Shown here: positions 37,096 to 63,725 of the stretch, one piece after another | How the letters are laid out: each line of letters starts with the position of its first letter | Numbering within the stretch: the stretch's first letter is position 1 | Origin: Helicobacter cetorum | Lineage (GTDB): Bacteria > Campylobacterota > Campylobacteria > Campylobacterales > DZAY01 | Reading direction: 5' to 3' | Length of the DNA stretch: 64,000 bases | Assembly: GCA_022729735.1 (NCBI GenBank) | Contig: DZAY01000005.1 | Location: forward strand, 1-64,000 | Notes under the pieces: generated by a model | The model's database searches: none | Seen by the model: only the letters and a program-made list of their open reading frames with translations | Told to the model about the DNA's origin: nothing | Position numbers and translations under genes: made by a program

Positions 37096-37103
37096 GAGTA
37101 AAA

Positions 37104-39394: not shown

Positions 39395-40952
39395 TTTAAA
39401 ACTTAAAATGCCAACACTAAAACAACAAAGTAGTGTTGGAAGTTTATTTAAAAGTATTGCTTATCTTCCATTAATAAAAGAGAGTGATACAGTTAGCTCA
39501 AAAGATGTTTTAACATTTGATGGAGATAAGTTTGCTATTAAAAAAGATAAATTTAAAAAAGATGAATTTATTGTTGCAAATATTTCAAGTAAATTTATAA
39601 TAAACAGCTCTATTGAATTAGAAATTGATGATGAATCTCTACTTGGAGATATTTTGGAATTGAAAGCTTATGAAGAGCTTGGATTAGAACAAAATGTAGA
39701 ATATGTGCTTAAATATTCACTAAAAAGTAAATCAGATGATTTAAAGCGAGAGTATGATGTATTTGCACTAAGCCATAATATAATTCATAATGAAACAAAA
39801 AATTATCTCCCAAAAGTTCCATCAATTGATTATATTAGTTCATCTCCATTTTTATTCAAAACTTTGTATGAACTAAAAAAACTTGACTCTAATAAAGCGC
39901 ACTGTTTTATATATTTTGGTGTTGATGATGCTTTTTTAGCTATTTATAAAAATGGAGCATTTTTATATTTTAAAAGTATCGATTTCTCAATTAAACAACT
40001 ATATGATAAATTTTTTAACTATTTCATTGGACAAATGGATTTTGAAGATTTTATAGCAATTATTTCGACTGATGGATTGAAAAATAGTGATGTAAAATAT
40101 AAAAATGGACTAAGTGAGTTATATGATGAAATGAATAGATACCTATTTGATATACTTATTTATGCAAAAAGACTTCACTCTTTAAATGATATTGATACAA
40201 TATTTCTTGATGGAGATTTTGGAATAGAGAGTGATTTTTATGACTCATTTGGCTCATTTAGTATGAGTGTTGTATCAAAATTCAATTTTGATTACGGTTT
40301 TGAAACCCCAAATGAGATTACTCATATCTCTAAACTTGCACTACTTTATGCAAATGAGGCTCTATATAGAAGTGTAGAATACTCTTTATATAACTTTACA
40401 ATATATAAAAGACCAGACCCGTTTTTTAAAACAGAGTTTGGAAAATTTGTGGGAGTTATTTTAATATCTACATCTCTTATGAGTATATATCCAATATATA
40501 CAGGTTGGCTGTTAAAAGTTGAAAGTGATACAAATGTTAAACTTTTAAAAGAGTTAAAAGAACTATCAGACAAAAAAGTCTATTATGAGCAAAAAATTGC
40601 AGAGTTTAATAATCAAAAAAGTGAATTACTAAAAAAACAAAATAGTGCAGTGCTTGACTACAACTACTATAACTCTATTTTAGATGAGTTAAACAAAGGC
40701 TTTAATAAGGGGTTAAATAAAACTCAACTTATGGTAAATTTTGTAAAAGAGTTAAATAGTGCAAATGTATTTACAATTTCAATAAATATAAAAGATGAAG
40801 AGTTAGAAGCTCTTGTATATTCTATTAGTGAAGATGAGATAGCAAATTTAATTAAAAATTTAAGAGCTAAAGGGTTTGATATTGATATTAAAAAGATTTA
40901 TAAAGATAGTGATGAAAGCTTTAAAAGCAAACTAAAAGTGAAACTACTATGA
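39378..40952 (+). CDS. Type IV pilus / T2SS inner-membrane assembly protein (MshI-like; PilM-like region plus PilN-like TM and coiled coil)
   Basis: Cytoplasmic region, single TM (VGVILISTSLMSIYPIY), coiled coil; first gene before PilO/secretin/ATPase genes. Confidence 0.6.
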   Translation: MLNLSSLKLKMPTLKQQSSVGSLFKSIAYLPLIKESDTVSSKDVLTFDGDKFAIKKDKFKKDEFIVANISSKFIINSSIELEIDDESLLGDILELKAYEELGLEQNVEYVLKYSLKSKSDDLKREYDVFALSHNIIHNETKNYLPKVPSIDYISSSPFLFKTLYELKKLDSNKAHCFIYFGVDDAFLAIYKNGAFLYFKSIDFSIKQLYDKFFNYFIGQMDFEDFIAIISTDGLKNSDVKYKNGLSELYDEMNRYLFDILIYAKRLHSLNDIDTIFLDGDFGIESDFYDSFGSFSMSVVSKFNFDYGFETPNEITHISKLALLYANEALYRSVEYSLYNFTIYKRPDPFFKTEFGKFVGVILISTSLMSIYPIYTGWLLKVESDTNVKLLKELKELSDKKVYYEQKIAEFNNQKSELLKKQNSAVLDYNYYNSILDELNKGFNKGLNKTQLMVNFVKELNSANVFTISINIKDEELEALVYSISEDEIANLIKNLRAKGFDIDIKKIYKDSDESFKSKLKVKLL

Positions 40953-41578
40953 AAACTTTGACATTTAGCGAGAGATTTAATAACTCAATAAAAAGTAAAA
41001 AAAAGAGCGAACAAGCAATTATATTTGTATTACCAATCATAATAGCTATATCTTTATCTACATATCTTATTATGCCAACAATGGATAAAAGATTAAAAGA
41101 AGCACAAAAGAGAAATGCTCAAATAGAGTCTCAAATTTCAACGGTTAAAACATATTTATACTCTATTGGTGCTTTGAGTGGAATAGATGTAGAAAAAGAG
41201 TTAGGTATAAAATTAAGTGAAATTGAAAATGACATTTTAAAAAATAATTTAGAAAAAGATAAACTTAGGTATTCACTTTTGGAATTGAATTCAAATCAGA
41301 GTGATTGGACAAATCTACTAAACACTCTTGCAAATAGAGCCTTAGAGCTTAATCTAAAAACTAATGTAATTTCAAAAGATAATATTGATAGTAATTTGAC
41401 TTATCTTAAAGAGCGAGAGTTTGATTTTGTTGGTAGTGGAGATTTTAAAGATATTATAAGATTTATGAATTTTATAGAGTTACAAACAGGATTGGTAAAA
41501 ATAAAAAGCATAAATTTAGATTATAAAGATGAAATTAATTTCAGAATTAAAATCACCATCATGGAGCTTATTATATGA
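40949..41578 (+). CDS. PilO/MshJ-like assembly protein
   Basis: N-terminal TM then coiled coil; ferredoxin-like C-terminus IIRFMNFIELQTGLVKIKSINLDY; position in operon. Confidence 0.6.
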   Translation: MKTLTFSERFNNSIKSKKKSEQAIIFVLPIIIAISLSTYLIMPTMDKRLKEAQKRNAQIESQISTVKTYLYSIGALSGIDVEKELGIKLSEIENDILKNNLEKDKLRYSLLELNSNQSDWTNLLNTLANRALELNLKTNVISKDNIDSNLTYLKEREFDFVGSGDFKDIIRFMNFIELQTGLVKIKSINLDYKDEINFRIKITIMELII

Positions 41579-42009
41579 AAAAAACTGTAATTTTTTTAAT
41601 ATCTATTTTAAATATTTTCGCAGAGCCACTATTTGTAGTTCCAAAAATGGATATTGATAAAAATATAGATGATATATTTGACCCATTTCCTCAAAAAATT
41701 ATAGAAGAAAACTCTACTGATTATAGTCAAGATGGAACGGAAATTGCTCCACCTATTGATATTGTTCAAACACTAAAGTTTGAAGCAAAAATTGATAATA
41801 GAGTGTTGCTTAGTGGCAAGTGGTATAAAAAAGATGATAACATCTCAACTTATAAGATTGTAGATATTAATAAAACCGATGTTCGCCTCTTAAACAGCGA
41901 AACCAATGAGACACTTTATATATCAGTTTTTGCAAAACAAGATAATATAAAAAGTAGGATTTTAGATGAAAATAAAACTCTTAATCTTAATGTCTATCAT
42001 GGTAAGTAG
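41575..42009 (+). CDS. MshK/PilP-like small periplasmic protein (CtsR-like position)
   Basis: Signal peptide MKKTVIFLISILNIFA; IDNRVLLSGKWYKKDDNISTYKIVDINKTDVRLLNSETNETLYI; immediately precedes the secretin. Confidence 0.55.
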   Translation: MKKTVIFLISILNIFAEPLFVVPKMDIDKNIDDIFDPFPQKIIEENSTDYSQDGTEIAPPIDIVQTLKFEAKIDNRVLLSGKWYKKDDNISTYKIVDINKTDVRLLNSETNETLYISVFAKQDNIKSRILDENKTLNLNVYHGK

Positions 42010-43609
42010 TTTAGGTGCAAATAGTTGTCAATCAAGACTTTTTACTATCGATAGCAAAGATTTAACTATTAGCAAATTTTTAAACTATATGGCACAAGAG
42101 TGTTCATTAGGAGTTCTCTATAAAGATAGATATGCAAAAGATTTAGCAGAGAGTAGTAATTTAAATCTTTATCTTAAAGATGTAACTCTAAATGAGCTTT
42201 TAGAAATTACTTTGAAAGAGAATAAACTTGCTTATGAATTTAATAATAAAATAATAAAAGTTAGCTATGAAGTGTCAAAAACATTTACACTTGACTATAT
42301 TAGTGGCACAAGAACTGGTAAAAGCACAACAAACATCGACCTTTCATCAGGAGTTGGAACAACTAATGTAGCTACTGCTAATAGTGGTAGTGGTGGAACT
42401 GCTGGTGGAGGTTCAAATATTAATATTGAGTCAGGAAGTGATTTTAATGTTTGGACACAAATAAAAACAGATATTGAAGAGATTTTGAAAAGTTCAAACT
42501 CTGATGGAAATATGAGTGGTTATCAACCAACTGTATTTATAAATGAAGGTGCAGGATTTATAAATGTAACTGGAAATATTGAGCAGATAGATAGAATAGA
42601 ACACTATATAAATGAAATTTCAAAAAAATTAACAAATCAAGTATTAATAGATGTGACAATTTTGAATGTTACACTAAATCATAACCAAAAAACTGGTATA
42701 GATTGGGGACAGTTACAAAGCATTTTAAATGTTGGTGTTGATTACTCATTAGGATATGGAGATAGTAGAAAAAGAGATGGAAATAAAGAAACAGTTGGTA
42801 TTGTGAATAATGGAAATGGTGGTTCAAATAGTTTAAGCCTTTCTTTAAGTGATGCACCAACACCATCAACAGGATTAGATGGCACAACTTCAACTACAGC
42901 AGGTGGCAGTGAAATACAATCTGAATTTAATGCAAATCCAGCTCTTTTGAATGGACAAAAAGTTTATGATGCAAAATCTATATTAAATAGTTCATCTTTT
43001 GCAATTAGTGGAAATGTAAATTTTAATGAAGTGATTAGATTTCTAAAAACTCAAGGAGATGTAAAAAGTGTATCAAATCCTAAAGTATTAACTCTAAATA
43101 ATCAACCAGCAATTATAAGTGTTGGTGAGCAGATATTTTATAGAACAATACAAGTTACATCAACAACAACACAAGCGACTCAAACAAATACAGCCACATC
43201 AATAGAAAATGTATTTACAGGAGTTTTGCTTGATATTACTCCAACGATTACTAATTCAAATGAGATTATTTTAAAAATTAATCCATCAATTAGCTCACCA
43301 AGAAATGATATAGCATTTAATGGAAATATTAGAGAAATGCCACCAGATATATCAAAAAAACAGCTTAACTCTGTGGTAAAAGTTAAAGATGAAGATAAGA
43401 TTATAATTGGAGGACTTATAAATACAACTCTTCAAGATGATGAGTCAAAAGTCCCATTTTTAGGAGATATTCCTTTAGTTGGAAATCTATTTAGACAAGA
43501 TACAAAAGGTGAAGTAATATCAGAATTAGTAATTATAATTACTCCACATATTATAAAAAGTGATAAAGCTCCATCTTTAAAAGATTTAGGTTATAACAAT
43601 GTCGAATAG
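41966..43609 (+). CDS. Secretin (MshL/CtsD-like)
   Basis: VLIDVTILNVTLNHNQKTGIDWG...SNPKVLTLNNQPAIISVGEQIFYRT...DEDKIIIGGLI...VPFLGDIPLVGNLFR. Confidence 0.92.
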   Translation: MKIKLLILMSIMVSSLGANSCQSRLFTIDSKDLTISKFLNYMAQECSLGVLYKDRYAKDLAESSNLNLYLKDVTLNELLEITLKENKLAYEFNNKIIKVSYEVSKTFTLDYISGTRTGKSTTNIDLSSGVGTTNVATANSGSGGTAGGGSNINIESGSDFNVWTQIKTDIEEILKSSNSDGNMSGYQPTVFINEGAGFINVTGNIEQIDRIEHYINEISKKLTNQVLIDVTILNVTLNHNQKTGIDWGQLQSILNVGVDYSLGYGDSRKRDGNKETVGIVNNGNGGSNSLSLSLSDAPTPSTGLDGTTSTTAGGSEIQSEFNANPALLNGQKVYDAKSILNSSSFAISGNVNFNEVIRFLKTQGDVKSVSNPKVLTLNNQPAIISVGEQIFYRTIQVTSTTTQATQTNTATSIENVFTGVLLDITPTITNSNEIILKINPSISSPRNDIAFNGNIREMPPDISKKQLNSVVKVKDEDKIIIGGLINTTLQDDESKVPFLGDIPLVGNLFRQDTKGEVISELVIIITPHIIKSDKAPSLKDLGYNNVE

Positions 43610-44420
43610 TAATAAATTTGAAAAAGCAAAGGATTGTTTTGCAGATGCTGAAGGTGTAAGGTTTATAAATTTAGATACATCTGTTTTGGCATTTGAAAAA
43701 TTGGCTGAAAGTGTTGAAAATAGTCATATCAAAATGACTCTATTAAGTGGTCTCCCTGGAACTGGCAAAAGTGTATTATTGGAAAAAATATATGAGAGAT
43801 ACAAAGAAAATATGAATATTTTGCTTGTAAAAATACCATTTGACTCAATAGAATCTCTACTTTGGCAAATAAATAATATGTTTATATTTTTGGCAGATAG
43901 AGATATAGATGAGATGAAAAGTTTTACATTGATGCTTGATAAAATTGCAAATGGATTAAATGATAAACAGATTATAATTCTTTTAGATGAAGCACAAATA
44001 TATGCAGAAAAAGAGTTAGAATATATTAGACTTTTATCTGATACCAAAAAATTTAAATTTATATTAGCTCTTCATGAGTTAAAAAATGAGACAGTAATTG
44101 TTAGAGAATATTTCAAATCAAGAATTTGGCAAATAATCAAACTTGAAAACTTATCAAGAAGTGAAGTTCATGTATATATTGAAAAAAAACTATTGGCATA
44201 TAGTTTATATGATGTTATAGTTCTGTTTTCAAAAACAAATTATAGTTTGATTTATAAATTAACTCATGGTAATCTTAGAAACATAAATAAATTGCTCTTT
44301 TTAGTATTTAATATAGTTGATTATTACTCAAAACATGATGGAACAAAGGTAGATATGGCTAAAATTCCAAATAAAATTATTGAAATGGCGGCAATTGAGT
44401 TAGGATTTATAAATGGGTAG
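43599..44420 (+). CDS. AAA ATPase, MshM/ExeA/CtsP-like
   Basis: LLSGLPGTGKSVLLEKIY Walker A, IIILLDEAQIY Walker B, in the operon after the secretin. Confidence 0.8.
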   Translation: MSNSNKFEKAKDCFADAEGVRFINLDTSVLAFEKLAESVENSHIKMTLLSGLPGTGKSVLLEKIYERYKENMNILLVKIPFDSIESLLWQINNMFIFLADRDIDEMKSFTLMLDKIANGLNDKQIIILLDEAQIYAEKELEYIRLLSDTKKFKFILALHELKNETVIVREYFKSRIWQIIKLENLSRSEVHVYIEKKLLAYSLYDVIVLFSKTNYSLIYKLTHGNLRNINKLLFLVFNIVDYYSKHDGTKVDMAKIPNKIIEMAAIELGFING

Positions 44421-45144
44421 ATATTCAGAATTAGAAAATAGATGGTTAAAATATAAGATAAAAACTCTTATTTATAAACTAATAATACCTCTGTTTGTTA
44501 TACTTATTTTACTTTTAATATACTTCTTTATAAAAGATGGAGTAGATACTAATCAAACTATTATTGAAACAAATACCACAACTCCAGAAAGTTCATATAG
44601 CTCTACTTCAATATCACCAGAATTAAATAAAACATTAAAAGCAGATTTTGGATTTGTAGATAGAATAAAAGATAAAGTTCAAAAAGAAGGACTTGCTCCA
44701 CCACCTCCACCAACAACAAAAATAGATTTACCTCCACCAATAGTTATACCTGCAAGTAGTAGTAGCAGTAGTAGCTCTCAAAAATCTTCAAGTAGCTCTA
44801 CAATGGGGTTTAATCTTCAATCTAAAGAGATGAATACAAAAGCAGATAAATTAGAGCTATTAGAGAGTAAATTCAAACAGAGCAATGATATAAAAGATGC
44901 TTTAGAGCTTTCAAGAGAGTTTTACAAAGTCAAAAACTATCCAAAAGCTCTAAATTGGGCAATTATTGCAAATGGTATTGATAGTAAAAATGCTGATAGT
45001 TGGATTATGTTTGCTAAATCTAAATATAAAATTGGAGATAGAGGAAAAGCTATTGAAGCTTTGGAAATATTTTCTAAAACAAGCAATTCAACAAGAGATG
45101 TTCTATTAGTGCTTGAAGCTATGAAAAGAGGAATTTTAGAATAA
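44413..45144 (+). CDS. MshN-like bitopic membrane protein with Pro/Ser linker and TPR-like C-terminus
   Basis: TM LIIPLFVILILLLIYFFI; PPPPPTTKIDLPPP; SSSSSSSSQKSSSSS; TPR-like YPKALNWAIIANGIDSKNADSWIMFAKSKYKIGDRGKAIEAL. Confidence 0.65.
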   Translation: MGRYSELENRWLKYKIKTLIYKLIIPLFVILILLLIYFFIKDGVDTNQTIIETNTTTPESSYSSTSISPELNKTLKADFGFVDRIKDKVQKEGLAPPPPPTTKIDLPPPIVIPASSSSSSSSQKSSSSSTMGFNLQSKEMNTKADKLELLESKFKQSNDIKDALELSREFYKVKNYPKALNWAIIANGIDSKNADSWIMFAKSKYKIGDRGKAIEALEIFSKTSNSTRDVLLVLEAMKRGILE

Positions 45145-45677
45145 TGAGACCAGTTTTACTTATTTTTATATTTTCACTCACACTATTTGCAAATACAAGA
45201 GATTCTATTATGCAAATGTATAGCAGTGAAAATTATGAAAAAGCTTGTTTAGTTGGTAGTAGATTATTTGAAAAATATCCAGATGAAGATTTTATATCAA
45301 TGGTGGGATTTGCTTGTTTATATTCTGATTATGTAGATAAATTGATAATTCCTATTACAAAATTGAGAGATACAGAAGGTGGGCGAAAAAATTCTGCATT
45401 TTTTGCAATTGCACTAATGCAAAAAAAACTGTTATATTCTGCACTAATTGATAATATTGATATATTTGGAATTTCTATTCCAAGTATTGATTATGTTTTA
45501 TCAAAAATTTTTAATAAATATGTGCGAAAAGAGTTTATTTTAGAAAATGGAACATATATTATAAAAGATGGAGATTTGGAATACAAAATGAGAGTTGTTC
45601 AAAGTGGAGGTTACAAAAAAATTCAAGTTGATATATTTAAAAACTCTAAATTTATAAAAACTCACTACTATTGGTAA
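45144..45677 (+). CDS. Hypothetical secreted protein in pilus/competence operon
   Basis: Signal peptide MRPVLLIFIFSLTLFA; overlaps the upstream stop and is 4 bp before the GspE-like gene. Confidence 0.6.
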   Translation: MRPVLLIFIFSLTLFANTRDSIMQMYSSENYEKACLVGSRLFEKYPDEDFISMVGFACLYSDYVDKLIIPITKLRDTEGGRKNSAFFAIALMQKKLLYSALIDNIDIFGISIPSIDYVLSKIFNKYVRKEFILENGTYIIKDGDLEYKMRVVQSGGYKKIQVDIFKNSKFIKTHYYW

Positions 45678-45681
45678 GATT

Positions 45682-47460
45682 ATGGCAGAAATAACACAAC
45701 CTCAACAACCTGTAAAAATGAGAATAGGTGATAGATTAGTTCAAGCTGGATTAATCACCAATGAGCAGTTAATGCAAGCTTTGGGAGTGCAAAAAACTTT
45801 AACTGTTAGAAAAAAAATTATTAGAGTATTGGCAGATTTAGGTTTTATTGATGAAGATAAACTTATGGAATTCTTTGCCGAGCAAGGACGACTTGGCAAC
45901 TTAAATCTTGACTCAATTATTGAAGATTTTCCTGCTAATGAAGATGAAATACTTAAAAAGCTTAGTGGTGCATTAAAATTAGAGTTTATAGATTTGGAAA
46001 ACATAGATATAGATTCTAAAATTGCTACATCTGTTCCATTTGCTCAACTAAAAAAATTCTTAGCAATTCCAATTAATGAAAGTGAATTTAATATCTTAGT
46101 TGCATTTCGAGACCCATTAGATTTTAATGCTCAAGAGTTAATACAAAGGTCATTTAAGCGAAAACCTATAAAAGTTGTTGTTGCAAAGCGAGAACAAATT
46201 TTAAAATATTTAACTAAATTAGAAACAAATTTGAGTGTTTTGGATTTAGTTGTCAAAATTCGTCAAGAAATTTCACTAAATACTAATACAGAAAACATAG
46301 GTAAATCTACAAGTATTTTAAAGTTAATAGAGGTGATTTTAAAAAGTGCAATTACAAGTAGAGCAAGTGATATTCATATAGAGCCAACAATTAATGGTTG
46401 TATTGTAAGGCATAGAATTGATGGACTTTTGCAAGAGAGTTTTTCATTTGATGAAGATATTTTCCCGCCACTATCTTCAAGAATTAAACTCTTAGCATCA
46501 CTTGATATTGCAGAAAAACGAAAACCTCAAGATGGAAGATTTAGTGCAAAAATAGCAAATAAAGATTTTGATTTTAGGATTTCAACTCTTCCAACACTTT
46601 TGGGTGAATCGATAGTTATTAGGATACTTGATAAGTCAAAAATTATGATTAAATTAGAAGATTTAGGATTAAGTGAAAGCACATTTAAACGACTAAAAAA
46701 AGCGATGTCTTCACCACATGGAATGATTTTTGTAACAGGACCAACAGGAAGTGGTAAAACAACAACTCTTTATGCAGCTCTAAGTGCAATAAAAAGTGTA
46801 TCTAAAAAAATTCTAACAGTTGAAGACCCAGTTGAATATCAATTACCAATGGTTCAACAAATTGGTGTAAATGAAAAAGTTGGATTAACTTTTGCAACGG
46901 TTTTAAGAAGTATATTAAGACAAGACCCAGATATTATAATGATAGGTGAGGTTAGGGATACAGAAACCTTAAGAATTGCTATTCAAGCTGCATTAACAGG
47001 ACATTTAGTTTTTTCTACACTTCACACAAACGATGCAATTAGTGCAATTACAAGACTACTTGATATGGGAATTGAGAGTTACTTTGTAAGTAGTTCAGTT
47101 GTTGCAATCCAAGCACAAAGATTAATTCGGAGATTATGTGTGCATTGTAAAAAACCGACAGATTTAGCTGATAATGTATATGAAGAGATAAAAGATTATA
47201 TTCCAAAAGAGCATCAATTTTATAAAGCAATAGGATGTGATAAATGCTCAAATACAGGATATTTTGGGCGAGATATGGTTACTGAAATTTTACTTATAAA
47301 TGATAAAATATCTCACTATATAGCACAAAGAGCAGATATAACTTTAATCAAAGAAGAAGCATTTAGAGATGGGTTTAAAACAATGTTTGAAGATGGTGTA
47401 TTAAAAGCTTCAAAAGGTATTACAACGATGGAAGAAGTTTATAGGGTTACAAAATTATAA
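45682..47460 (+). CDS. GspE/PilB-family secretion ATPase (MshE/CtsE-like)
   Basis: SRASDIHIEP, FVTGPTGSGKTTTLYAAL, RQDPDIIMIGEVRDTET, TGHLVFSTLHTN, C..C zinc motif. Confidence 0.95.
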   Translation: MAEITQPQQPVKMRIGDRLVQAGLITNEQLMQALGVQKTLTVRKKIIRVLADLGFIDEDKLMEFFAEQGRLGNLNLDSIIEDFPANEDEILKKLSGALKLEFIDLENIDIDSKIATSVPFAQLKKFLAIPINESEFNILVAFRDPLDFNAQELIQRSFKRKPIKVVVAKREQILKYLTKLETNLSVLDLVVKIRQEISLNTNTENIGKSTSILKLIEVILKSAITSRASDIHIEPTINGCIVRHRIDGLLQESFSFDEDIFPPLSSRIKLLASLDIAEKRKPQDGRFSAKIANKDFDFRISTLPTLLGESIVIRILDKSKIMIKLEDLGLSESTFKRLKKAMSSPHGMIFVTGPTGSGKTTTLYAALSAIKSVSKKILTVEDPVEYQLPMVQQIGVNEKVGLTFATVLRSILRQDPDIIMIGEVRDTETLRIAIQAALTGHLVFSTLHTNDAISAITRLLDMGIESYFVSSSVVAIQAQRLIRRLCVHCKKPTDLADNVYEEIKDYIPKEHQFYKAIGCDKCSNTGYFGRDMVTEILLINDKISHYIAQRADITLIKEEAFRDGFKTMFEDGVLKASKGITTMEEVYRVTKL

Positions 47461-48704
47461 TGAGATATTTTGATGTTACAGTCTTAATTAAAGGCAAAAA
47501 AGAGATAGTTAAAATTAAAGCAGAAAGTCGTCAAGATGCTATTTCAATTGCAAAAAATAGAGTTGTTGGAATTCCATTAAGAGCAATTGAGGGCAATCCA
47601 TCTTTGATGAACTTATATGATGAGCATATAGGTAATATCAAAAATAAAATTATTCCAAAAAAAAATATAAAAATAGAAACTATAATTGGAGCTATGCGAC
47701 AATTAGCTGTAATGACTGGAGCTGGAATATCTATTCATCAATCAATCCAAAATATAATTGATATGACAAATGAAAAAGATTTTAAAGAGATTATGCAGAC
47801 AGCTTATGATGGAATAAACTCTGGAAAAAGTTTAAGTGAAGCTCTTTTACCATACAAAAAAGAGCTTGGAAATTTGACAATTTCTATGATAGATTTGGGT
47901 GAAAAGACAGGAAATTTACCAGAATCACTTGCAATGCTTACAAAAACTTTAGAAGATTTAAAAGAGAATAGAGATAAATTTAAAAAAGCTCTAAGGTATC
48001 CATTGATTACTTTAACTGCTATGGCAATCGCATTTGTTATTCTAATTTTATTGGTTGTGCCAAAATTTAAAGCAATTTTTGCATCATTTAAAGCAGAACT
48101 GCCAATGCCAACAAAAGTTTTACTTGCAATAGAACATGCTTTATCAAATTATGGATTGCTTATTTTAGGATTTTTTGTAGCCCTATATTTTGCATTTAAA
48201 TATATGTATGGAGCTAATGAAAATTTTAAAAATAGTGTAGATAGATACACTCTAAAGCTCTATTTAATTGGTGATATTATCTATTTATCTTCATTAAATC
48301 TATTCATGATTTCAATATCACAATTAGCAAAAGCAGGAATTCCATTAACTGATGCTCTAAATTCTGGAATTAGTATGGTTGATAATAAATATTTAAGAGA
48401 TAAACTTTCACTAATTTCAGCTTCAATTCAAAAAGGTGGAGATTTAACAACAGGTTTTAAAGATAGCGAACTATTTGAAAATATGATTATTCAAATGGTT
48501 CATGCTGGAGAAATTAGTGGTAGTTTAGATGAACTGCTTGGCAAAGGGGCTCAATATTATAAGATGAGATTTGATAATATTTTGGATAACATCTCATCAT
48601 ATATTGAGCCTTTAATGTTGGCATTTATCGCAGGATTGGTGCTTTTATTAGCATTAGGAATTTTCTTACCTATGTGGGATTTATCATCAGCTGTTAAAAA
48701 GTAA
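47460..48704 (+). CDS. GspF/PilC-family inner-membrane protein (MshG/CtsF-like)
   Basis: AMRQLAVMTGAGISIHQSIQN...MIDLGEKTGNLPESLAML...MVHAGEISGSLDELL. Confidence 0.95.
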   Translation: MRYFDVTVLIKGKKEIVKIKAESRQDAISIAKNRVVGIPLRAIEGNPSLMNLYDEHIGNIKNKIIPKKNIKIETIIGAMRQLAVMTGAGISIHQSIQNIIDMTNEKDFKEIMQTAYDGINSGKSLSEALLPYKKELGNLTISMIDLGEKTGNLPESLAMLTKTLEDLKENRDKFKKALRYPLITLTAMAIAFVILILLVVPKFKAIFASFKAELPMPTKVLLAIEHALSNYGLLILGFFVALYFAFKYMYGANENFKNSVDRYTLKLYLIGDIIYLSSLNLFMISISQLAKAGIPLTDALNSGISMVDNKYLRDKLSLISASIQKGGDLTTGFKDSELFENMIIQMVHAGEISGSLDELLGKGAQYYKMRFDNILDNISSYIEPLMLAFIAGLVLLLALGIFLPMWDLSSAVKK

Positions 48705-53430: not shown

Positions 53431-53432
53431 AA

Positions 53433-54101
53433 CTACTCCTTGTATGCTATTTTGTCCTCTATATTGGCTTCTTTAAAACCTTTTAATCTCAATCTACAAC
53501 TATCACAAACTCCACAAGCCTTATCTTCATCTAAATAACAACTCCAAGTTAGCTCTAATGGAACTCTTAATTTTATCGCTTCTTTGACTATATCTCTCTT
53601 TTTTAGATTAATTAAAGGTGTAGCAATTTTAAGTTTTGTAGCATATTTTGTTCCAATATTTATGGACTTTTCAAAACTATTTATAAACTCTGCTCTACAA
53701 TCAGGATAACCACTACTATCTTCTTCAACAACTCCAATAAAAATTGCTTCAGCTTTTTCTTTTTCAGCAACTGCTGTTGCAATACTTAAAAATATTCCAT
53801 TTCTAAATGGCACATAAGTAACTGGAATAACTCCTTCTATAATTCCATCAGTTGGGACTTCTATATTTATATCGGTCAAAGCAGAATGTCCAATAGCTTT
53901 AAAAAAATCTAAATCTATTTCTATCTTTTTTGCACCAAGAGTATCAGAAATTGCTCTAAAAGCTTCTAACTCTTTTTTCATTGTTCGTTGAAAATAGTTA
54001 AAATGGAGTGTTATTATTTCGTAATTTTGCTCTTTTGCAATATATGCACAAAGAGAACTATCCATTCCACCACTTAATATACAAATTGCTTTTTTTTTCA
54101 T
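53433..54101 (-). CDS. queC: 7-cyano-7-deazaguanine synthase
   Basis: [19 protein letters not shown]...[13 protein letters not shown]...[20 protein letters not shown]. Confidence 0.96.
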
Positions 54102-54183: not shown

Positions 54184-54855
54184 TTAATTCTCCTCTATAA
54201 CCAATCCTGTAATTGGCTTTATTATTATGCTTTTTTGAGTTCCAGAGCTGTGAGTTAGTGTTATTTTGCAATCAGAAGTGATTAAAGATGATGTGTTATA
54301 AGGATTTGTTGATGTGTTGTTTTTGTATGGTCTGCCAAGTTCATCAAAAAATATTCTTCTACTTTGATTTATTCCTTGGTTATTGGTGCAAGATGAAGAA
54401 AATTTTATATCTGTAATACCAAAATTGTATAGTTGCATTCTTTTATTAACTCTATCATCATCAATAGATAATATACCACTTTGACCACCACTTAAATATT
54501 TATCTCTATTTTGAGAATCTTTAGGATTTAAAATATCAATTGCTATATTATCTCCTATATTTACATCTCCATCTTGATTTAAACTATCTTGATATATAGA
54601 AAAAGCCCAAACATCTGTCACATCAACACTTCTATTAAAATTTAACTGCCATCTATCCTTAAACCATTCTGGATTATTTTTATCATACATATCTTGAGAT
54701 AGTGCTAAATGCTGTGTGTATCTTAAATAATATACAACCTCATCAACTGCTTCTTGTAACTCATCTCCATCAAATTTAAATGAAATAAAACTTGCTAAAA
54801 TACCTCCAATAATAATTACAAATATTAACTCTATCATTGTAAATGCTTTTTTCAT
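54184..54855 (-). CDS. Type IV prepilin-like / pseudopilin
   Basis: N-terminus KKAFTMIELIFVIIIGGILASF. Confidence 0.85.
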   Translation of the reverse strand: MKKAFTMIELIFVIIIGGILASFISFKFDGDELQEAVDEVVYYLRYTQHLALSQDMYDKNNPEWFKDRWQLNFNRSVDVTDVWAFSIYQDSLNQDGDVNIGDNIAIDILNPKDSQNRDKYLSGGQSGILSIDDDRVNKRMQLYNFGITDIKFSSSCTNNQGINQSRRIFFDELGRPYKNNTSTNPYNTSSLITSDCKITLTHSSGTQKSIIIKPITGLVIEEN

Positions 54856-55253
54856 GGTTTTTGCACCGTTCTTCTATGAAATCTAATTGGCTCATTAGTT
54901 ATACACTCTCTTGTAGTAACTATTACATCAATAACTGCCGTCCCATTTGTCTCTGGAGTATCACCAATATATTGATAAGTTATATTTATATCAAATACAT
55001 CACTTACATTTATATCTGAAAAAGTTAAATTTTCAGTTGAATAATTATGCTCACTCATTCTAAAAATTGCATATTCTGTGGCACTTCTTGCTAATAGTTC
55101 TGCTTGTGTTCTTAAATATGTGTCTTGTGTTTGCTTTGTGATAATTGATGAGATAGTCATAATATATGTGCCAAATAGAGCAATTACAACCATAATAATA
55201 ATTGCCAAAAGTATTCCAAAACTTTTTCTCAAAATATTGCCCTCTCTTTGCAA
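54852..55253 (-). CDS. PilX/MshP-like minor pilin-associated protein
   Basis: N-terminal hydrophobic helix KSFGILLAIIIMVVIALFGTYIMTI, no canonical prepilin site; between pilin genes. Confidence 0.6.
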   Translation of the reverse strand: MQREGNILRKSFGILLAIIIMVVIALFGTYIMTISSIITKQTQDTYLRTQAELLARSATEYAIFRMSEHNYSTENLTFSDINVSDVFDINITYQYIGDTPETNGTAVIDVIVTTRECITNEPIRFHRRTVQKP

Positions 55254-56176
55254 ACAGTAGCATTTATATCTTCATACTCTGGCAAACAGTGGTTTATACA
55301 GACTCTAATTCTCATAACTCCACTCTCTTGAATAAATCTAAATGATTCCACATTTGTGGCTAAAGGCTCTTGTTTTGTATTTATATCACTATATTTTTCT
55401 CCATTCCACGGACGATAGTCATAATAAAGAGTTAAATTGTAATCGTTGTCATTATTTGGATTGATATTTTTATCCATTCGCAGAGCATAAGCACTATCAA
55501 CTAAATAGTATTGTTCAAAAAGTGCTGTATCTTCTAAGTTTTTACTTCTATCAATATTGAAATTATCATTATTAATTACTGTAATATCAAAAATTCCTGT
55601 TGCATTATTATCAAATTTATAACCAAAACCAGCAATTAAATCATTTCCAAAGTAGTAACCTCTATAATCTTTATCTGTAAATACAAGAGCCACTTTTTTG
55701 TTTGTAAAAACATCAATATCATTAAATATTGCTCCATCTATATCTTGCACAACTGATAGATTTGTATCTGGTGAATAAATAGTATGAAATTTAAAAACAG
55801 TATCATATATAGATGAGTTCATATTTATATATCCACTCCACCCAAGAGTAACAGTTACTCCATCATTTGATATACCTCTTTGAGACTCATAAGCTATCCC
55901 TATCCACTCAAGTGTATCGTAAGTATCATCAACAGCTTCAATAGATTTATAATTTGCTCCATTTATTGAGCCAACTACACTATTTTTTATTCTATATTGC
56001 AATCTACTTGCTATCTGTTCGGTTATAACTTTTGTTTGAAACTCAAGCTCATTTGTGATTTTTGAAGTTAAATATTTTTCATAAATTCCAATTACAATAT
56101 TAAAAGATATTGCACTAACTATTCCCAATACTACAATTACAAATATCATCTCTAAGAGTGAAAAAGCTTTTCTCAT
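55229..56176 (-). CDS. Type IV prepilin-like protein (MshO-like position)
   Basis: N-terminus RKAFSLLEMIFVIVVLGIVSAI; 315 aa. Confidence 0.85.
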   Translation of the reverse strand: MRKAFSLLEMIFVIVVLGIVSAISFNIVIGIYEKYLTSKITNELEFQTKVITEQIASRLQYRIKNSVVGSINGANYKSIEAVDDTYDTLEWIGIAYESQRGISNDGVTVTLGWSGYINMNSSIYDTVFKFHTIYSPDTNLSVVQDIDGAIFNDIDVFTNKKVALVFTDKDYRGYYFGNDLIAGFGYKFDNNATGIFDITVINNDNFNIDRSKNLEDTALFEQYYLVDSAYALRMDKNINPNNDNDYNLTLYYDYRPWNGEKYSDINTKQEPLATNVESFRFIQESGVMRIRVCINHCLPEYEDINATVCKERAIF

Positions 56177-56832
56177 TGCACTTTCCTAATCTCAACTACT
56201 CCAATATTTCCTGCTACATAGTTTAGCTCTGCTATTAGCTCTTTTTTACAATCATAAGATTTAATGCTAATTTGCTTTAAATTTGTTGAAACACTGCTAT
56301 TTTCATACCAATTAGTTTTATTACTGTCTGTATAGTCATCTTTTATATATTTAACTGTTACATTTATATCATATCCATTTAACTCTTCACCATAACCATT
56401 AAATGAGCTTATACTTGTTTTTGGTGCAGTTGGAATTAATATTGGTATTGGAGATAAATTTGGTGGTGTTGGATTATTTACAGCTTGAGCTACTGTGCAA
56501 GTTCTAAATAAACTTTCACCAATTCCAGCTACATTTTCAAATATACTTCTCTCTCCTAAAGTAGCATTAATATCACTATTTAACATATTTTGACATGTTG
56601 AGTTAATAACAGTTAATATTTTATTTACATTTTCATTTTTATTTTCATCATCCCATGGAAATGATAATATTATATTCATTAAAGCTATTGAGTGAAATAT
56701 TGCTTGTTGCTTGATAGCTTCTTCATCACTTTTATTTGCTTCTGTCATAAGAAATGGAATTGTTAGCATAGATATAGATATTATAACTATGCTAAATACA
56801 AGTTCAATTAGTGAAAAAGCTCTTTTTACCAT
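56173..56832 (-). CDS. Type IV prepilin-like protein (MshD-like position)
   Basis: N-terminus VKRAFSLIELVFSIVIISISML. Confidence 0.85.
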   Translation of the reverse strand: MVKRAFSLIELVFSIVIISISMLTIPFLMTEANKSDEEAIKQQAIFHSIALMNIILSFPWDDENKNENVNKILTVINSTCQNMLNSDINATLGERSIFENVAGIGESLFRTCTVAQAVNNPTPPNLSPIPILIPTAPKTSISSFNGYGEELNGYDINVTVKYIKDDYTDSNKTNWYENSSVSTNLKQISIKSYDCKKELIAELNYVAGNIGVVEIRKVQ

Positions 56833-59800
56833 TGCATTCTAATAGATGAATTTACATCTTGTTTTTTTACTTTAACAGTATCATCTACAGTTTTACCACT
56901 TCCACCCCAATCATTAGTTAGACTACTGATAAACTCCAATGAGAATGTTGGATGATTTAGTGGAGATTGTGAAGTAGCAAATTCTATATATGCTCCTCCA
57001 AATTTTGTATAATATAGATACTCTGGTATTGATAAATGGACTATCTCTTTATGTTTTTCATTAGTTCCACTATATGAGAAGTTTCGAGTTATATCACCAT
57101 TATTAAATGGTATCGGAGCTAATGAAGTTCCACTCATATTTTCATTTGGTTTTAGATTAATAGCTTTTACTTCTGAAACACTATCTTTAGAATTTATATA
57201 CCAACCAATATCATTTGGACTAACACTAAATCCACTTATTCCCATTTCAACCTTATTACAAGTTTTGCAATATATTTCAGAGTAAATTTTTGCATCAACA
57301 CTTTTATCATAAATAGTTACATCTTTACCTTTTACTCTACCATAATAGAATGTTGCATTTTTATCTGGATTTGTTGTTACATTTCCTTCTACCAAACTAT
57401 TATCTTTAATTGTAAAGTTAATATCAACTTGAGTTCCATTTATAAACCTTGGCTCAAGTAAAGTATTATAAGCTCTACTATAATTAAATCTATAATCATT
57501 TAAATTAAGTGTTGTTTCACCATCAATAAAGCTTAAATCTTCATTGTTAAAACTTAAATTATCATCTACATGAATTGGATTATCTGGAATATTAAAGATA
57601 TTACTTAATGTAATATTCTCTTCATACAATCCATTTGAGTAGTTTTTGGTTATTTCATTTAGATGGTTTATAGCTTTAATCTTGAGTGATAAGTTTCTAA
57701 CTAATGCACTCATATTTAAATCATTAGAATAGTATGTAAAGTTAGCATCTGAAAAGTTATTATCTAAATATGGTTGATTTATAAATGTAACTTCAAACTG
57801 TTTTGGAGTGAATTTAACCATATTTGAGTTAGCACATATATCACATCCAACTTTTCCTTCACTATCTTTAGCATTACTACAACTATTAGAAACACAATCA
57901 TTTGGTTGGTCTATTTCAGTCCATTTTTTATCAGTAAGATTTAAATCAATATATCCAATATCAGAGTAGTTAAAATCAACCAAAGTTACTGCTGTGCCAT
58001 TTATTGTAAATGGAGAGCCTTTTACAAAATTTCCATTTAAAGAGTTATCTATATCAATTTTATTTGGCATATATTTATTGTAAATAATAGTTAAATTAGT
58101 ATCTCCTTGAATATATCCGTTATCAGAAGCACTAAATTGTAACTCACTATGTGTTAATCCTGCAATATATGAAGACCTTAAAAACAGCATCGTTAAGCTA
58201 TATGGTTTAATTGCAAAGCTATCTAAATTTTCTTCACCTTTTTTATCATCAATAACTTCTGCATCTTGTTTATTAATTAGTGCATCTTCTTCACTAATCA
58301 ATCTCCACTCCAATATAGGCTGAAGATGTTTATAACTTTCATTTATTGCTGGAATAGTAAATGTATATGATGTGTGGTCTTTATTTATAACTTCCCAACT
58401 GCTAAAAGGCACAACTACTGTATTGCCATTTGTTACATCTACTATTTTGACTCTTACTTGATAATTTTTATCTCCAATTGTTTCTGGATTTACCGCAGTT
58501 ATAGTTAAATCAAAAGCTTCTCCAGCAGTTTTTGTTGTAATACTATTATTATGTTCGCCACTTCTAAGAGGATTTAATATATCAAAATCTGTCAAAGTTG
58601 GTGGAACTAACTTTATATCATCACCACTTTCTATCTCTATTCCTTCAAAACTATTTCCACCAATCACATTTTCACTAAAATCTGTTTGATATGTAGCTTT
58701 GAAATCTGTTGTATCTTCGCTTTTTGCTCTTATAGTATATGTGAAAGTCTCTTCACCATATTTATTAAGCGACAGAGAATTAGGAACATTATCACTATTT
58801 ACTAACTCAAATTTATCTTCATCTAATAATATATCAACAATATTTATATTGGTTAAATCATAATCATGTTGATTTTTTATAGTTACACTAACTGTTATTG
58901 TTTCTCCAACTTCAGCTGGATTATCAGTAGTAATATCATTTCCATCTCTATCTTTTAAGTTTGTTGTAAATAGTAAAGGCTCTTTTAGTGCTGAAGTTGC
59001 AACAACTCCTACAAAATATTTATCGCTATTATCTACACTAAAATCAATCTCATTTAATAAAGTAAAGTTTAAAACAATTTTATTATCTGATGCTTCTTCA
59101 AATTTATTTAGATAGCTTTGTGTATCGACTAACATTTTATCATCACCACCACTATTACCACCATAACCAAATATTGTTGTATTTGCATCTTTGAGATTGA
59201 AATTTTTTGTAGAGTTTCGCTCAAATATTCCATTTGTCTCATTTTTTTCACTTCTATTTGCAATACCAACAAATCCATCTTGAATAGCAACATTTCTAAT
59301 TTTTTTGATAGTTGAATTATCTTCATAAGCAACTACCAAAATCCATCCAGCAAATCCACTACTATACTCTATTCCACTTATTGAATAATCTCCTGAACTA
59401 TTTATCTCATTTGTTACATCAAGTGAGCCTTGATAAGCTAAATTATTACTATCTATAACTATATTTGTATTTGGATAAGTTACAGAATTGCTTTTAAAAG
59501 TTATACTGTCTGCTGTTTTATAAAGTATATCATCTCTATAATTACTTAAATATCCATACCAATATAGTCTTGCATACTCTATTTTTGCATTAGTTGGAAT
59601 ATTGCTTATAGAGATAATTCCACTTGTTCCACTAAATACTTTATAATCTCCTTGTAAATTTTTTGAAAAAATAGTATCAAATGGTTTTGGTTTAGCCATC
59701 AATCCTATATTTATAGTTTTAAAATCATCTTTTTTAGCTGATGGTATAAATGAAACATCTGAAGTTAGTTTTACATAATTTGTTATATTACTACCAATCT

Positions 59801-62800
59801 CTTTACCTTTTACATCTATTTTGATAGTTGTAGTATCTACACTTATATCTCCAAGTGGTATAGTTATATTTCCATCTGCTATATCTTCTGGAGCTATATT
59901 TATATATGTTGAACCTCCATCTATACTGTATTTGATAGATTCTATATTTGTCTCATTTAAATCTACTAATAGTTTAGAGTTAGTAAGTGTATGAGATGAT
60001 AATTTTGAAATATCTACAATCAAAGAAAACTCTGTATCAATTGGAATAACTCCATTATCACCAATCCCAACTCCATTACTATCTTCCATTTTTAGAGATA
60101 GCATTACATCAGCTTCCAAACCTTCTCCAACAATAATTCTTTGAGGATTACTTTTTCCAAGTGTTTTTGTATCAAGTGAGCTTTTTGCTTCTACTTGTGA
60201 ATAGAAATCTCTATCACTATTTGGAGATTTTATAGTAAAGCTAAATTCAGAGAAATTTCCATCTTTATTTATAGTTCCATTTAATTGACACTCTAAATTA
60301 TTACTAATTGTATATGGAGGAGGTGGAGGACAATCCCAACCATTAGCTGTAACTAAACCAGTAAATACAAAACCGTCTAAAAGACTTACAGAAATTTTTG
60401 GATTATCTTCATTAAAAGGAGCTTTATTAGTTAATTTAACTGTATAGTTTATAGTCTTATTATAGCCAACACTTACATCTCCATTACTATTTTTTGGAGT
60501 TACATTAGCTTCTACTGAAAATTTAGATACATATATAGTTGTATTTATAAATGCATTATCCACACACTTTGGAACTACATTATTGAAATTCATTTTTAAA
60601 GTATCACTCACATAATTTACCATATATGTATTATTAATCTCTCCATTTTGAGGATAAGAGATAATATCAGAGTTATATTTGTATTCTGCTTTTCCATTTA
60701 CAGCTATTTGACCACCATTTGTAGCATTAGCTCCAGTTCCAACTCTAACTTTTAATTTATATTCACTATCCACATAATCAACTTCATCATCACCAACTGC
60801 ATTTGTTTTTTGGACACCATTTAAATAAGTTCCATTAGTTTTGTTATATCCAAGTGGTGCATCAAATATTTTATCTATTTGAACTTTTGATGCCTCTTCT
60901 GTTCCTATATTTGATACATTTACTTCAAATACTAATCTATCTCCTAAAAAGATAGATGTATTTTCATCAACAATCAAATCATTTTTATAAATTGTTTCAA
61001 GATAACAAACTTTTGGAGAGTATAGCTCTGTTGCGAATGCAACCATTCCAGGATAATATTGGTCGCCAGATGTTTCAAGTCTTATCGTTGTTGAAGTTTG
61101 AGAATTACTAATAATATTAGAACCAGTCGTTCCAACACTAAACACATCTATATCAATTCCCATATTATTATTTAAAGTTGGATTTCTTGGAGTTCCATTA
61201 TTTATAGACGAGTTAAATACATTATTTATATTTGAAGCATCTACATTTTGAAAATTGCCAATTTTATCAGTAAGTTGAAATTTATCATCTCTATATGGTA
61301 AATCGCCTTCACCTGCAAATACAAAAAGTTCTGAATTTACATTTCCACTTGCTGGAGTTAAAAATCCACTTATATTAATATCTACCCTTCTATATCCTGT
61401 GCTATCTTGAACATTTTTATATCCTGTAAATAGAGATAAGTTTTTATAACTATCTTGTAAATCTTCATAAGCAACAGTTAATGCCCAAGCACCATAGTAG
61501 TTTGTTTGTCCCTCATCAACATATAAGTCTGCAACTGTATAAGTTCCACTATCTTTAATTAAATTTGTAATGTTTTTATAACATTGATATGATTCTCCAT
61601 TATAAAAACATTTTCCACCATCTAAAGCATCAATTTCAGTGTAATTTGGGGATAATGGTGTTTTTAGTTTTAATCTATTAATATTAGTTCGCTCTTCCAC
61701 ACATATATTACTCCAAGTTCTACAAGTTCCATTAGACCAATATCTTGTACATTGAGTTTCTGTTCTTATACATTCTGAAATATTTTCAGTTCTACCTTGC
61801 CAACTAAGCAAAGCATATTTAATTTTTGCATCTGGTCTTAATACCAAATCTGCACTACTTGAATTAAATGTTGAGCTATTATTATCAACATCTACATAAT
61901 AAGTCCTTACATCATTATTTGCTTTTGTAGAGTTTGGCACACAATTGCCACCACTTTTTTCACATAAAACCACATTACCTATTAATTTTATATTTCCATA
62001 TAAATTGCTATTATAAACTAATCTAAAATCTTCATATCCAGTTTGTAGATTTGAAGTAGCTTTATTTATAGTTATAATCATAATATCATTTACACTTCCA
62101 TAACCATCACTTACATTAAAATTAAAACTATCATTACTATCATCTCCATAAGTGTGAAGATACTCTATTTTTCCATCATCAATATCTTTTTGAGTGAAAT
62201 TTTGACTTGTTGAAGTTATAGCTACACCACTATAATATATGACACCTTTTGTAGGAAGTGCTGTAATTGTATATACTAATTGCGAAGTATTTTCTTCATT
62301 ATCAGTAGCTTTTAGATTAGAGTTTGTAACTATTTTTCTCTCATTTTGATTAACTGTTATAGATTTATTTATGATTTGTGGAAGTGAATTTATTTTGATA
62401 CCCAAACTCGATGACACAATATTAAAACCATCAGTTAGATTAAAATACAATCTACTAAGTGAAATAGTTCCATTACTAACAAAAGTAACTCTTCCATAAT
62501 CTATATCACTTTGAGTGAATGTTCCTCCAACTCCTAAATTAACTCCATTTAGCTTGATAGTTCCATTTGTAGGTAAAGTCGTAATAGTATAAACTAATTG
62601 TGCTGGATACTCTTCAGCATCAGTTGCTGGTAAATTTAAATTTATAATCTTTGCACTCTCATTTACATTTACAAATAGATTAACAGGAGTAATAACTGGT
62701 GCATCATTTATAGGATTTACATAAATTTGCATAGTTCCAAGTGGTGATGAGCTTAATGTTCCATCAGTTACACCAAAATTAAAACTATCGCTTGTTGTCT

Positions 62801-63725
62801 CACTACCATCATGTTTATAGCTTATATTTCCATCATTTATATCTTTTTGAGTAAATGTGCTATTTGTATCTAATAAAACTCCATTTTTATATAAATTTCC
62901 ATGTATCGGCAAAGAGTTTAAATGATATACTAACTCTTCTGGTTTTTGTTCTTTATCAGTCGTATTTAACTCTGTACCTTTTATAACTTTTGTTGTATTT
63001 TCATCTATTCTCATTTCGCTAATTTTAATTTCTGGTGGAGTAATATTTGCACACTCATTCACATTCAAATTCAAAAGAGCATTGCTATCATATTCTACAT
63101 TTCCTCCACCGTTTATTCTTATTTCTTTTCCTGAAACAATAGCACCTTTAACTGTTCTATTTACATGTATATTAGCATTAGGTGCATATATAAAAGCATT
63201 AAGAGGAGATGATGTTTGCACTGCAAAATTATTTGTACCAAGATATATTATAACAAGCTTAGATGATTCTGTGTTATCAAACTTCCCATCTAATGTAATA
63301 TTTCCATTGATGTAAATTATAGTAGTACTACTTCCTGTTAGATGAACGGTTTTACCACCATTTAACTGAAAGTTTGAAAAATAGTGTGTGCCGTCTGTGA
63401 GATATAAATCAGTATCATTTTGATGAGCAAGGTCTGGGAAATTTGTATAACTACCAGAACTATTTAATTCAAGTGCTTCAACATTCATATTGCTTTTATA
63501 ACACTCTAAACCATCACATCTTGAATTTAAATTATTCCCAGAAAGATTTGTAGTATCTAATACTCTATCTCCTGTTGAAGTTAATGTTCCATCTATATAA
63601 ATAGTTCCACCAGATAGATTTGATACAGCATTACTAAAAACCAAGGAGCATTGAGGTGAAGCAATAGCACCCATATTAAACCCAAAAACTATTAACCCAA
63701 AAACAATACGAATAAAATTTTTCAT
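56826..63725 (-). CDS. Giant (2299 aa) secreted surface protein: CSPG/cadherin-like repeats, duplicated module with DUF11-like segments, Cys-containing C-terminal region; candidate pilus-associated adhesin
   Basis: Signal peptide; three repeats of the form ...LVY.(I/L)..LP..G.(I/L)...G.....FTQ(K/S)DI..G.(I/V); duplicated AKI.YA.L.W.G / AW.L.VAYED modules; cotranscribed with four pilin-like genes. Confidence 0.75.
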   Translation of the reverse strand: MKNFIRIVFGLIVFGFNMGAIASPQCSLVFSNAVSNLSGGTIYIDGTLTSTGDRVLDTTNLSGNNLNSRCDGLECYKSNMNVEALELNSSGSYTNFPDLAHQNDTDLYLTDGTHYFSNFQLNGGKTVHLTGSSTTIIYINGNITLDGKFDNTESSKLVIIYLGTNNFAVQTSSPLNAFIYAPNANIHVNRTVKGAIVSGKEIRINGGGNVEYDSNALLNLNVNECANITPPEIKISEMRIDENTTKVIKGTELNTTDKEQKPEELVYHLNSLPIHGNLYKNGVLLDTNSTFTQKDINDGNISYKHDGSETTSDSFNFGVTDGTLSSSPLGTMQIYVNPINDAPVITPVNLFVNVNESAKIINLNLPATDAEEYPAQLVYTITTLPTNGTIKLNGVNLGVGGTFTQSDIDYGRVTFVSNGTISLSRLYFNLTDGFNIVSSSLGIKINSLPQIINKSITVNQNERKIVTNSNLKATDNEENTSQLVYTITALPTKGVIYYSGVAITSTSQNFTQKDIDDGKIEYLHTYGDDSNDSFNFNVSDGYGSVNDIMIITINKATSNLQTGYEDFRLVYNSNLYGNIKLIGNVVLCEKSGGNCVPNSTKANNDVRTYYVDVDNNSSTFNSSSADLVLRPDAKIKYALLSWQGRTENISECIRTETQCTRYWSNGTCRTWSNICVEERTNINRLKLKTPLSPNYTEIDALDGGKCFYNGESYQCYKNITNLIKDSGTYTVADLYVDEGQTNYYGAWALTVAYEDLQDSYKNLSLFTGYKNVQDSTGYRRVDINISGFLTPASGNVNSELFVFAGEGDLPYRDDKFQLTDKIGNFQNVDASNINNVFNSSINNGTPRNPTLNNNMGIDIDVFSVGTTGSNIISNSQTSTTIRLETSGDQYYPGMVAFATELYSPKVCYLETIYKNDLIVDENTSIFLGDRLVFEVNVSNIGTEEASKVQIDKIFDAPLGYNKTNGTYLNGVQKTNAVGDDEVDYVDSEYKLKVRVGTGANATNGGQIAVNGKAEYKYNSDIISYPQNGEINNTYMVNYVSDTLKMNFNNVVPKCVDNAFINTTIYVSKFSVEANVTPKNSNGDVSVGYNKTINYTVKLTNKAPFNEDNPKISVSLLDGFVFTGLVTANGWDCPPPPPYTISNNLECQLNGTINKDGNFSEFSFTIKSPNSDRDFYSQVEAKSSLDTKTLGKSNPQRIIVGEGLEADVMLSLKMEDSNGVGIGDNGVIPIDTEFSLIVDISKLSSHTLTNSKLLVDLNETNIESIKYSIDGGSTYINIAPEDIADGNITIPLGDISVDTTTIKIDVKGKEIGSNITNYVKLTSDVSFIPSAKKDDFKTINIGLMAKPKPFDTIFSKNLQGDYKVFSGTSGIISISNIPTNAKIEYARLYWYGYLSNYRDDILYKTADSITFKSNSVTYPNTNIVIDSNNLAYQGSLDVTNEINSSGDYSISGIEYSSGFAGWILVVAYEDNSTIKKIRNVAIQDGFVGIANRSEKNETNGIFERNSTKNFNLKDANTTIFGYGGNSGGDDKMLVDTQSYLNKFEEASDNKIVLNFTLLNEIDFSVDNSDKYFVGVVATSALKEPLLFTTNLKDRDGNDITTDNPAEVGETITVSVTIKNQHDYDLTNINIVDILLDEDKFELVNSDNVPNSLSLNKYGEETFTYTIRAKSEDTTDFKATYQTDFSENVIGGNSFEGIEIESGDDIKLVPPTLTDFDILNPLRSGEHNNSITTKTAGEAFDLTITAVNPETIGDKNYQVRVKIVDVTNGNTVVVPFSSWEVINKDHTSYTFTIPAINESYKHLQPILEWRLISEEDALINKQDAEVIDDKKGEENLDSFAIKPYSLTMLFLRSSYIAGLTHSELQFSASDNGYIQGDTNLTIIYNKYMPNKIDIDNSLNGNFVKGSPFTINGTAVTLVDFNYSDIGYIDLNLTDKKWTEIDQPNDCVSNSCSNAKDSEGKVGCDICANSNMVKFTPKQFEVTFINQPYLDNNFSDANFTYYSNDLNMSALVRNLSLKIKAINHLNEITKNYSNGLYEENITLSNIFNIPDNPIHVDDNLSFNNEDLSFIDGETTLNLNDYRFNYSRAYNTLLEPRFINGTQVDINFTIKDNSLVEGNVTTNPDKNATFYYGRVKGKDVTIYDKSVDAKIYSEIYCKTCNKVEMGISGFSVSPNDIGWYINSKDSVSEVKAINLKPNENMSGTSLAPIPFNNGDITRNFSYSGTNEKHKEIVHLSIPEYLYYTKFGGAYIEFATSQSPLNHPTFSLEFISSLTNDWGGSGKTVDDTVKVKKQDVNSSIRMQW

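Follow-up and report, generated by a model that had tools for sequence, protein, structure and literature searches.

How a 2299-aa surface protein, encoded end to start with four pilin-like genes, could belong to a pilus is the question raised by the window analysed here, a 64,000-nucleotide stretch of Helicobacter cetorum DNA from an assembly of 2.5 Mb in 66 contigs. A sequence-only reading had proposed a giant adhesin at the pilus tip, of the MshQ or PilY1 type, coupled to the pilin-like genes and served by an assembly operon on the opposite strand. The observation is real and its broad interpretation sound: the MshQ-like tip idea was largely right, and its generality understated. We consider it probable that the giant and the pilins make up the tip of a type IV pilus of the MSHA class, with the giant as a tip adhesin docked by a plug and bearing a variable head.

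All five open reading frames described for the unit are present on the minus strand (Table 1). The overlaps of 7 bp (giant and pilI), 4 bp (pilI and pilJ) and 4 bp (pilK and pilH) were confirmed, but the remaining one, of 25 bp between pilJ and pilK, would require pilK to start at a TTG at 55253. In alignments, pilK relatives begin with MRKGF; the equivalent start codon in the window is an in-frame TTG at 55232, and a start there turns the pilJ/pilK overlap into a 4-bp TTGA instead of 25 bp. Start 55232, with the short overlap, is thus the probable one. The order giant-pilI-pilJ-pilK was found again in dozens of genomes, and the arrangement is therefore not due to chance. A promoter and terminator scan was uninformative, with no excess over shuffled sequences for anything, and turned up no terminator-like site on the region's minus strand.

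The GFxxxE prepilin motif is carried by three of the four minor pilins; pilK lacks Glu5, as is usual for GspK. Against the GspH profile, pilH scored 21 bits, under that profile's cut-off. The C-terminus of pilK is conserved in two forms, mostly RRT[IL]QK[PLI] or [ST][LM]QRP, which follow the two locus classes (W and R, respectively) described below.

Within the giant, the CSPG/cadherin repeats noted earlier were recovered as three Cadherin_3 repeats, all far above cut-off. They are followed by a beta-rich domain, module A, which is present in 17 of the collected giants, the window's included. Its AF2 model has pLDDT values mostly of 80-95 across the first ~345 residues, and the module is distantly DUF3344-like, with a DUF3344 match in three members. 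Searches of the PDB with this model gave no significant match from which a function could be read, only jelly-roll-type matches. Module A is a widespread domain, and in the window's giant it has no Pfam match of its own. The proposed duplication of a module within the giant is supported, though the pairwise signal between the copies is weak (they score 94, and the best of 200 shuffles 86). The C-terminus, previously called Cys-rich, is only modestly so (6 Cys per 574 aa).

Table 1. Features of the pilus locus in the window (aa, residues of the encoded protein).
Feature	Coordinates	Strand	Evidence
MshI/PilM-N-like	39378..40952	+	gene order; homologues in compact operons
MshJ/PilO-like	40949..41578	+	gene order
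MshK/PilP-like	41575..42009	+	gene order
Secretin, MshL/CtsD-like	41966..43609	+	PF00263, 160.6 bits
AAA ATPase, MshM/CtsP-like	43599..44420	+	AAA_22, 45.5 bits
TPR protein, MshN-like	44413..45144	+	weak TPR-type match; gene order
Conserved 177-aa operon protein, unnamed	45144..45677	+	present in relatives' operons
Extension ATPase, MshE-like with MshEN domain	45682..47460	+	T2SSE 443 bits, MshEN 57 bits
Inner-membrane platform protein, MshG/GspF-like	47460..48704	+	T2SSF, 166 bits
Minor pilin pilH, MshC/GspH-like, 223 aa	54184..54855	-	GFxxxE, 24.2 bits
Minor pilin pilK, MshP/PilX/GspK-like by order	54852..55232	-	alignment, sequence, C-terminus pattern
Minor pilin pilJ, MshO/GspJ-like by order, 315 aa	55229..56176	-	GFxxxE motif
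Minor pilin pilI, MshD/GspI-like by order, 219 aa	56173..56832	-	prepilin motif; position conserved
Putative giant tip protein, MshQ-like (DUF6701), 2299 aa	56826..63725	-	ORF; DUF6701 above curated cut-off
Predicted disordered tail, aa 2270-2299, ending SIRMQW	56829..56918	-	pLDDT ~30 in AF2 model
Constant C-terminal plug (DUF6701), aa 1726-2279	56889..58550	-	family HMM, 546 bits
Second, degenerate module A copy, ~aa 1427-1596	58938..59447	-	HMM 97.8 bits, profile partly trained on this copy
DUF11 domain, aa 922-1003	60717..60962	-	25.9 bits, cut-off 24.6
Module A, beta-rich domain, aa 572-909	60999..62012	-	HMM, 458 bits
Candidate laterally shared head cassette, aa 277-1199	60129..62897	-	identity to G023, of another family
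Cadherin_3 repeat 3	62070..62375	-	76.3 bits
Cadherin_3 repeat 2	62415..62690	-	56.4 bits
Cadherin_3 (CSPG-type) repeat 1	62745..63035	-	86.4 bits
DUF7305-like N-terminal domain, aa 87-214	63084..63467	-	Pfam 44.1 bits, cut-off 27
Likely Sec signal peptide, aa 1-25	63651..63725	-	sequence, by eye

The assignment to an MshQ-like family was borne out by a sequence profile. Residues 1690-2299 of the giant match the Pfam family DUF6701 at 34.8 bits (cut-off 27), and relatives reach 81.4 bits; at E 0.01, the match extends to only 9 of 28 aligned family members (best E 6e-23), so that this family is divergent when compared with MshQ. MshQ of Vibrio and Shewanella carries a C-terminal DUF6701, which we take to be the domain of MshQ; the Pfam description itself speaks only of a family of unknown function. 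The likeness to MshQ rests on this profile together with the neighbourhood, as the giant gene adjoins MSHA-type minor pilins. A search of plasmid sequences, in which a gammaproteobacterial MshQ was sought, gave no match, and no sequence relative of the plug was found in the PDB. The plug is predicted to be a chain of Ig-like sandwiches (AF2 model, mean pLDDT 77.7 over the modelled segment). Foldseek yielded generic Ig/MG-like matches only (TM ~0.15), and a more specific fold for the plug was rejected on this basis.

The plug is the sole part common to all collected relatives, and its position is always C-terminal. The proteins that bear it span ~530-4080 aa, and the smallest (L040 and L059; 572 and 581 aa) consist of little beyond a leader and the plug. 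Giant surface proteins across the order can thus be accounted for by different heads on one base. The size of the window's protein and its cadherin repeats, which had been taken as unusual, are not, because heads vary freely on the common plug, and giant size as such was discarded as a novelty. The heads of relatives carry ConA/LamG, pentaxin, H-type lectin, Calx-beta, Big_9/cadherin and GEVED domains, several of which are sugar- or cell-binding folds. Across the family, as judged from sequence comparison, the plug is constant and the N-terminal head variable.

We found that part of the window's head is closely matched in a genome of another family (G023). Residues 277-1199, the cassette, are 66% identical to G023 at the amino acid level (about 80% in residues 701-1000, and up to 82%) and 74% identical in DNA over 2783 bp. 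Elsewhere, identity between the window and G023 is 29% for the plug, 27% for the N-terminal 200 aa, 65% for GspE and 62% for Era. A cassette up to 82% identical alongside a plug of only 29% indicates lateral head exchange, and the simplest reading of these sequences is that heads have been exchanged between lineages onto divergent plugs. The same pattern could arise if strong constraint on heads were combined with fast drift of plugs. This would be in keeping with identity at fourfold-degenerate sites, which in the cassette is just moderately higher than in GspE (61% versus 48%, against 44% and 38% expected from composition alone). However, it sits poorly with the comparison between G023 and G004, two genomes of one family, whose cassettes are 60% identical, less than the 66% between the window and G023, whereas GspE shows the reverse (85% versus 65%). 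Moreover, fourfold-site identity reaches 68% in the cassette core, while the N-terminal 200 aa are as divergent as given above. Constraint without exchange is therefore a doubtful explanation.

The plus-strand operon at 39378-48704 has the gene order MshI-J-K-L-M-N-E-G, where the names MshI, MshJ, MshK and MshN are ones we assigned from position, after the MSHA order. The proposed link between this operon and the giant and pilins on the opposite strand is upheld by 31 sampled loci in which the giant, then the pilins, then the assembly genes run in one direction in MSHA order; in some of them, one to three further genes separate the giant from the pilins. As all three sets form one operon in these loci, the two oppositely oriented halves seen in the window belong to one system. 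The suggestion that the window holds a complete machine was slightly wrong. Two tandem pilins, MshA/B-like by eye, lie on another contig of the assembly (C45) and are likely the major pilins; two PilT-like (retraction) ATPases and one prepilin peptidase are also encoded on other contigs of the genome. The same genome carries an apparent separate type II secretion system (L175, L176 and L177, contig C54), with a second secretin, pseudopilins and a second GspE. Ahead of mshI, positions 36220-39394 encode Era, one uncharacterised protein and a cell-shape carboxypeptidase of family Peptidase_M99, a neighbourhood seen again at locus L070 and partly at L179 and L180. Between the two pilus halves, positions 50827-54101 encode a PAS-histidine-kinase-receiver hybrid and QueC.

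Of the 160 genomes sampled from the order Campylobacterales, 119 (in 48 of 63 genera) have matches to the plug profile, and 119 likewise have strong pilJ matches. Both genes occur in 115 genomes, the giant only in four (these have a divergent giant and no strong pilJ), pilJ only in four and neither in 37, an association with an odds ratio of 266 (Fisher p 3e-27; this statistic ignores phylogeny). Joint absences are spread over several families, among them parts of f10, f11, f19 and f23 and all sampled members of f9 and f14. The giant and MshM occur together in 110 genomes, with the giant only in nine, MshM only in 11 and neither in 30. MshM was dropped as a marker common to all such machines, since some giant-bearing genomes retain a secretin operon that lacks it (G002, L071). 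The secretin is present in 40/40 nearest sampled genomes and pilJ in 115 of the 119 that bear a giant; a giant without the machine, named in the sequence-only reading as the observation that would refute it, was thus not seen in these 40 genomes. Operon structure and phyletic co-occurrence together bear out the coupling of the giant to the minor pilins.

The giant ends in a short tail that is disordered in the model. Of 139 intact proteins, 101 end in W, 36 in R and two in another residue, and we defined two classes by this last residue. Tails of the W class mostly end in [KR][KR][ILMV]xW and those of the R class in G[VI]K[LIV][FYL]R. Only 3 of 439 well-filled columns are invariant among W-class plugs, and the terminal W is one of them, although invariance of that residue within a class holds by construction because the class is defined by it. 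The weight instead rests on two letters covering 137 of the 139 proteins and on the way in which the letter follows the type of locus. All 31 compact loci, with giant, pilins and assembly genes together, are R-ended, while pilin-only loci comprise 63 W, 3 R and 1 other; in two of these three R-ended loci the contig stops less than 2.4 kb downstream. Loci without adjacent pilins comprise 27 W, 1 R and 1 other. When trees of the plugs, with the tail left out, and of pilJ were built, R members formed essentially one group in each, and the W and R classes are thus two anciently separated pilus systems. Since this is essentially one ancient split, the correlation of classes counts as roughly one event and not as repeated co-evolution; independent co-evolution of motif and pilins was rejected for this reason. 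Elsewhere (L084, L105, L114, L116, L121 and L145), two or three giants stand in tandem with no pilins next to them, and all of these giants retain a W-ended tail.

Several known systems resemble this one. The giant shares with MshQ of Vibrio and Shewanella the C-terminal DUF6701, neighbouring MshD/O/P-type minor pilins, the MshI-G assembly operon and a putative adhesin role. In the MSHA locus, mshQ comes last, after the pilins, whereas the giant gene comes first, ahead of them. Unlike in the MSHA locus, the assembly operon of the window is on the other strand and not contiguous, and unlike MshQ, the giants reach five copies per genome and include orphan copies. PilY1/PilC proteins likewise have a constant C-terminal part, a variable N-terminal head and minor pilins alongside, of the FimU/PilV/PilW/PilX type. 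However, the giant has no PilY1 beta-propeller (PF05567), its plug being an unrelated, Ig-like one, and the PilY1-type assignment was therefore not sustained. A PF05567 search of its own genome and relatives (40 genomes) was silent, as was the control search. As judged by gene set and order, the assembly genes are similar to the Campylobacter jejuni Cts genes, and we know of no giant tip protein in the Cts transformation system. MSH pili have already been detected in Epsilonproteobacteria (PMC6668835), and type IV pili were noted in Thiovulum (PMC9938260). The window operon has mshE, mshG, mshL and mshM of the MSH class of Denise et al. 2019, as judged from Pfam profiles and gene order, but its major pilins are unlinked; the paper is silent on MshQ and on head/plug structure (PMC6668835). 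Among the MSHA components, MshM, MshQ and MshF have been counted as those of unknown function (PMC9815625). In a search of open-licence papers we found nothing on DUF6701, and none that described a division into plug and head, a terminal key, orphan or tandem copies, or head exchange.

We propose that the signal peptide sends the giant to the periplasm, where pilH-I-J-K would form a priming complex that stays at the pilus tip. The DUF6701 plug would be held on this tip complex, most likely via the flexible tail. The final residues of this tail ([KR]x[ILMV]xW in the W-ended class) may bind a minor pilin, probably pilK, by beta-strand addition. We propose this binding of the tail because the analogous PilY1 has been modelled at the tip with predicted strand complementation to PilX (PMC13190605). 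A pilus built by MshI-J-K-L-M-N-E-G from major pilins encoded elsewhere would then carry the giant out through the secretin, and the N-terminal head would bind surfaces, probably glycans or other cells, with heads exchanged between lineages.

The terminal peptide could instead be a secretion or outer-membrane sorting signal, with the giant a surface adhesin exported like a type II substrate and no part of the tip. A C-terminal aromatic residue does recall outer-membrane beta-signals, a second secretion system is apparently at hand in the genome, and the motif is kept in giants without adjacent pilins. However, the model has no beta-barrel and a disordered tail, the motif class tracks the pilus system, and the giant is tightly co-occurring and operon-coupled with pilins. 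Further, a V. cholerae dmshQ mutant has less surface MSHA, as expected on loss of a priming or tip part, and its pili still support phage transduction; MshQ is described there as a putative adhesin (PMC7096442). We therefore regard a sorting signal as unlikely. Less likely still is that the operon serves mainly for DNA uptake, as a competence pilus whose giant binds or steers DNA. The order of genes in the era-linked assembly operon is like that of the Campylobacter Cts transformation genes, and CtsD, CtsE and CtsP act in transformation; yet all sampled members of f9 and f14 lack the giant and strong pilJ while having the secretin, A. butzleri is transformable but lacks a ctsP homologue, and the heads bear glycan- and cell-adhesion-type domains.

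The tip-adhesin reading extends, more tentatively, to the whole order. Possibly, giant tip adhesins on a common plug are interchangeable, with a class-specific W/R docking key in the last 4-6 residues that fits the minor-pilin tip of its own class; orphan genes, whether dispersed or in tandem, would compete for the W-key tip, and heads would be exchanged laterally. The terminal key is an unusually testable element of this scheme, as it gives a target of six residues for studying how a pilus tip retains its adhesin. If the key model is true, the pilus that carries an orphan adhesin would be predictable from the adhesin's last residues. On contig C38, a 1622-aa ORF lies ~150 bp upstream of the giant on the same strand (L045:3875-8743, minus strand); it has no Pfam match at 0.001, and part of it resembles the window ORF at 4562-7183.
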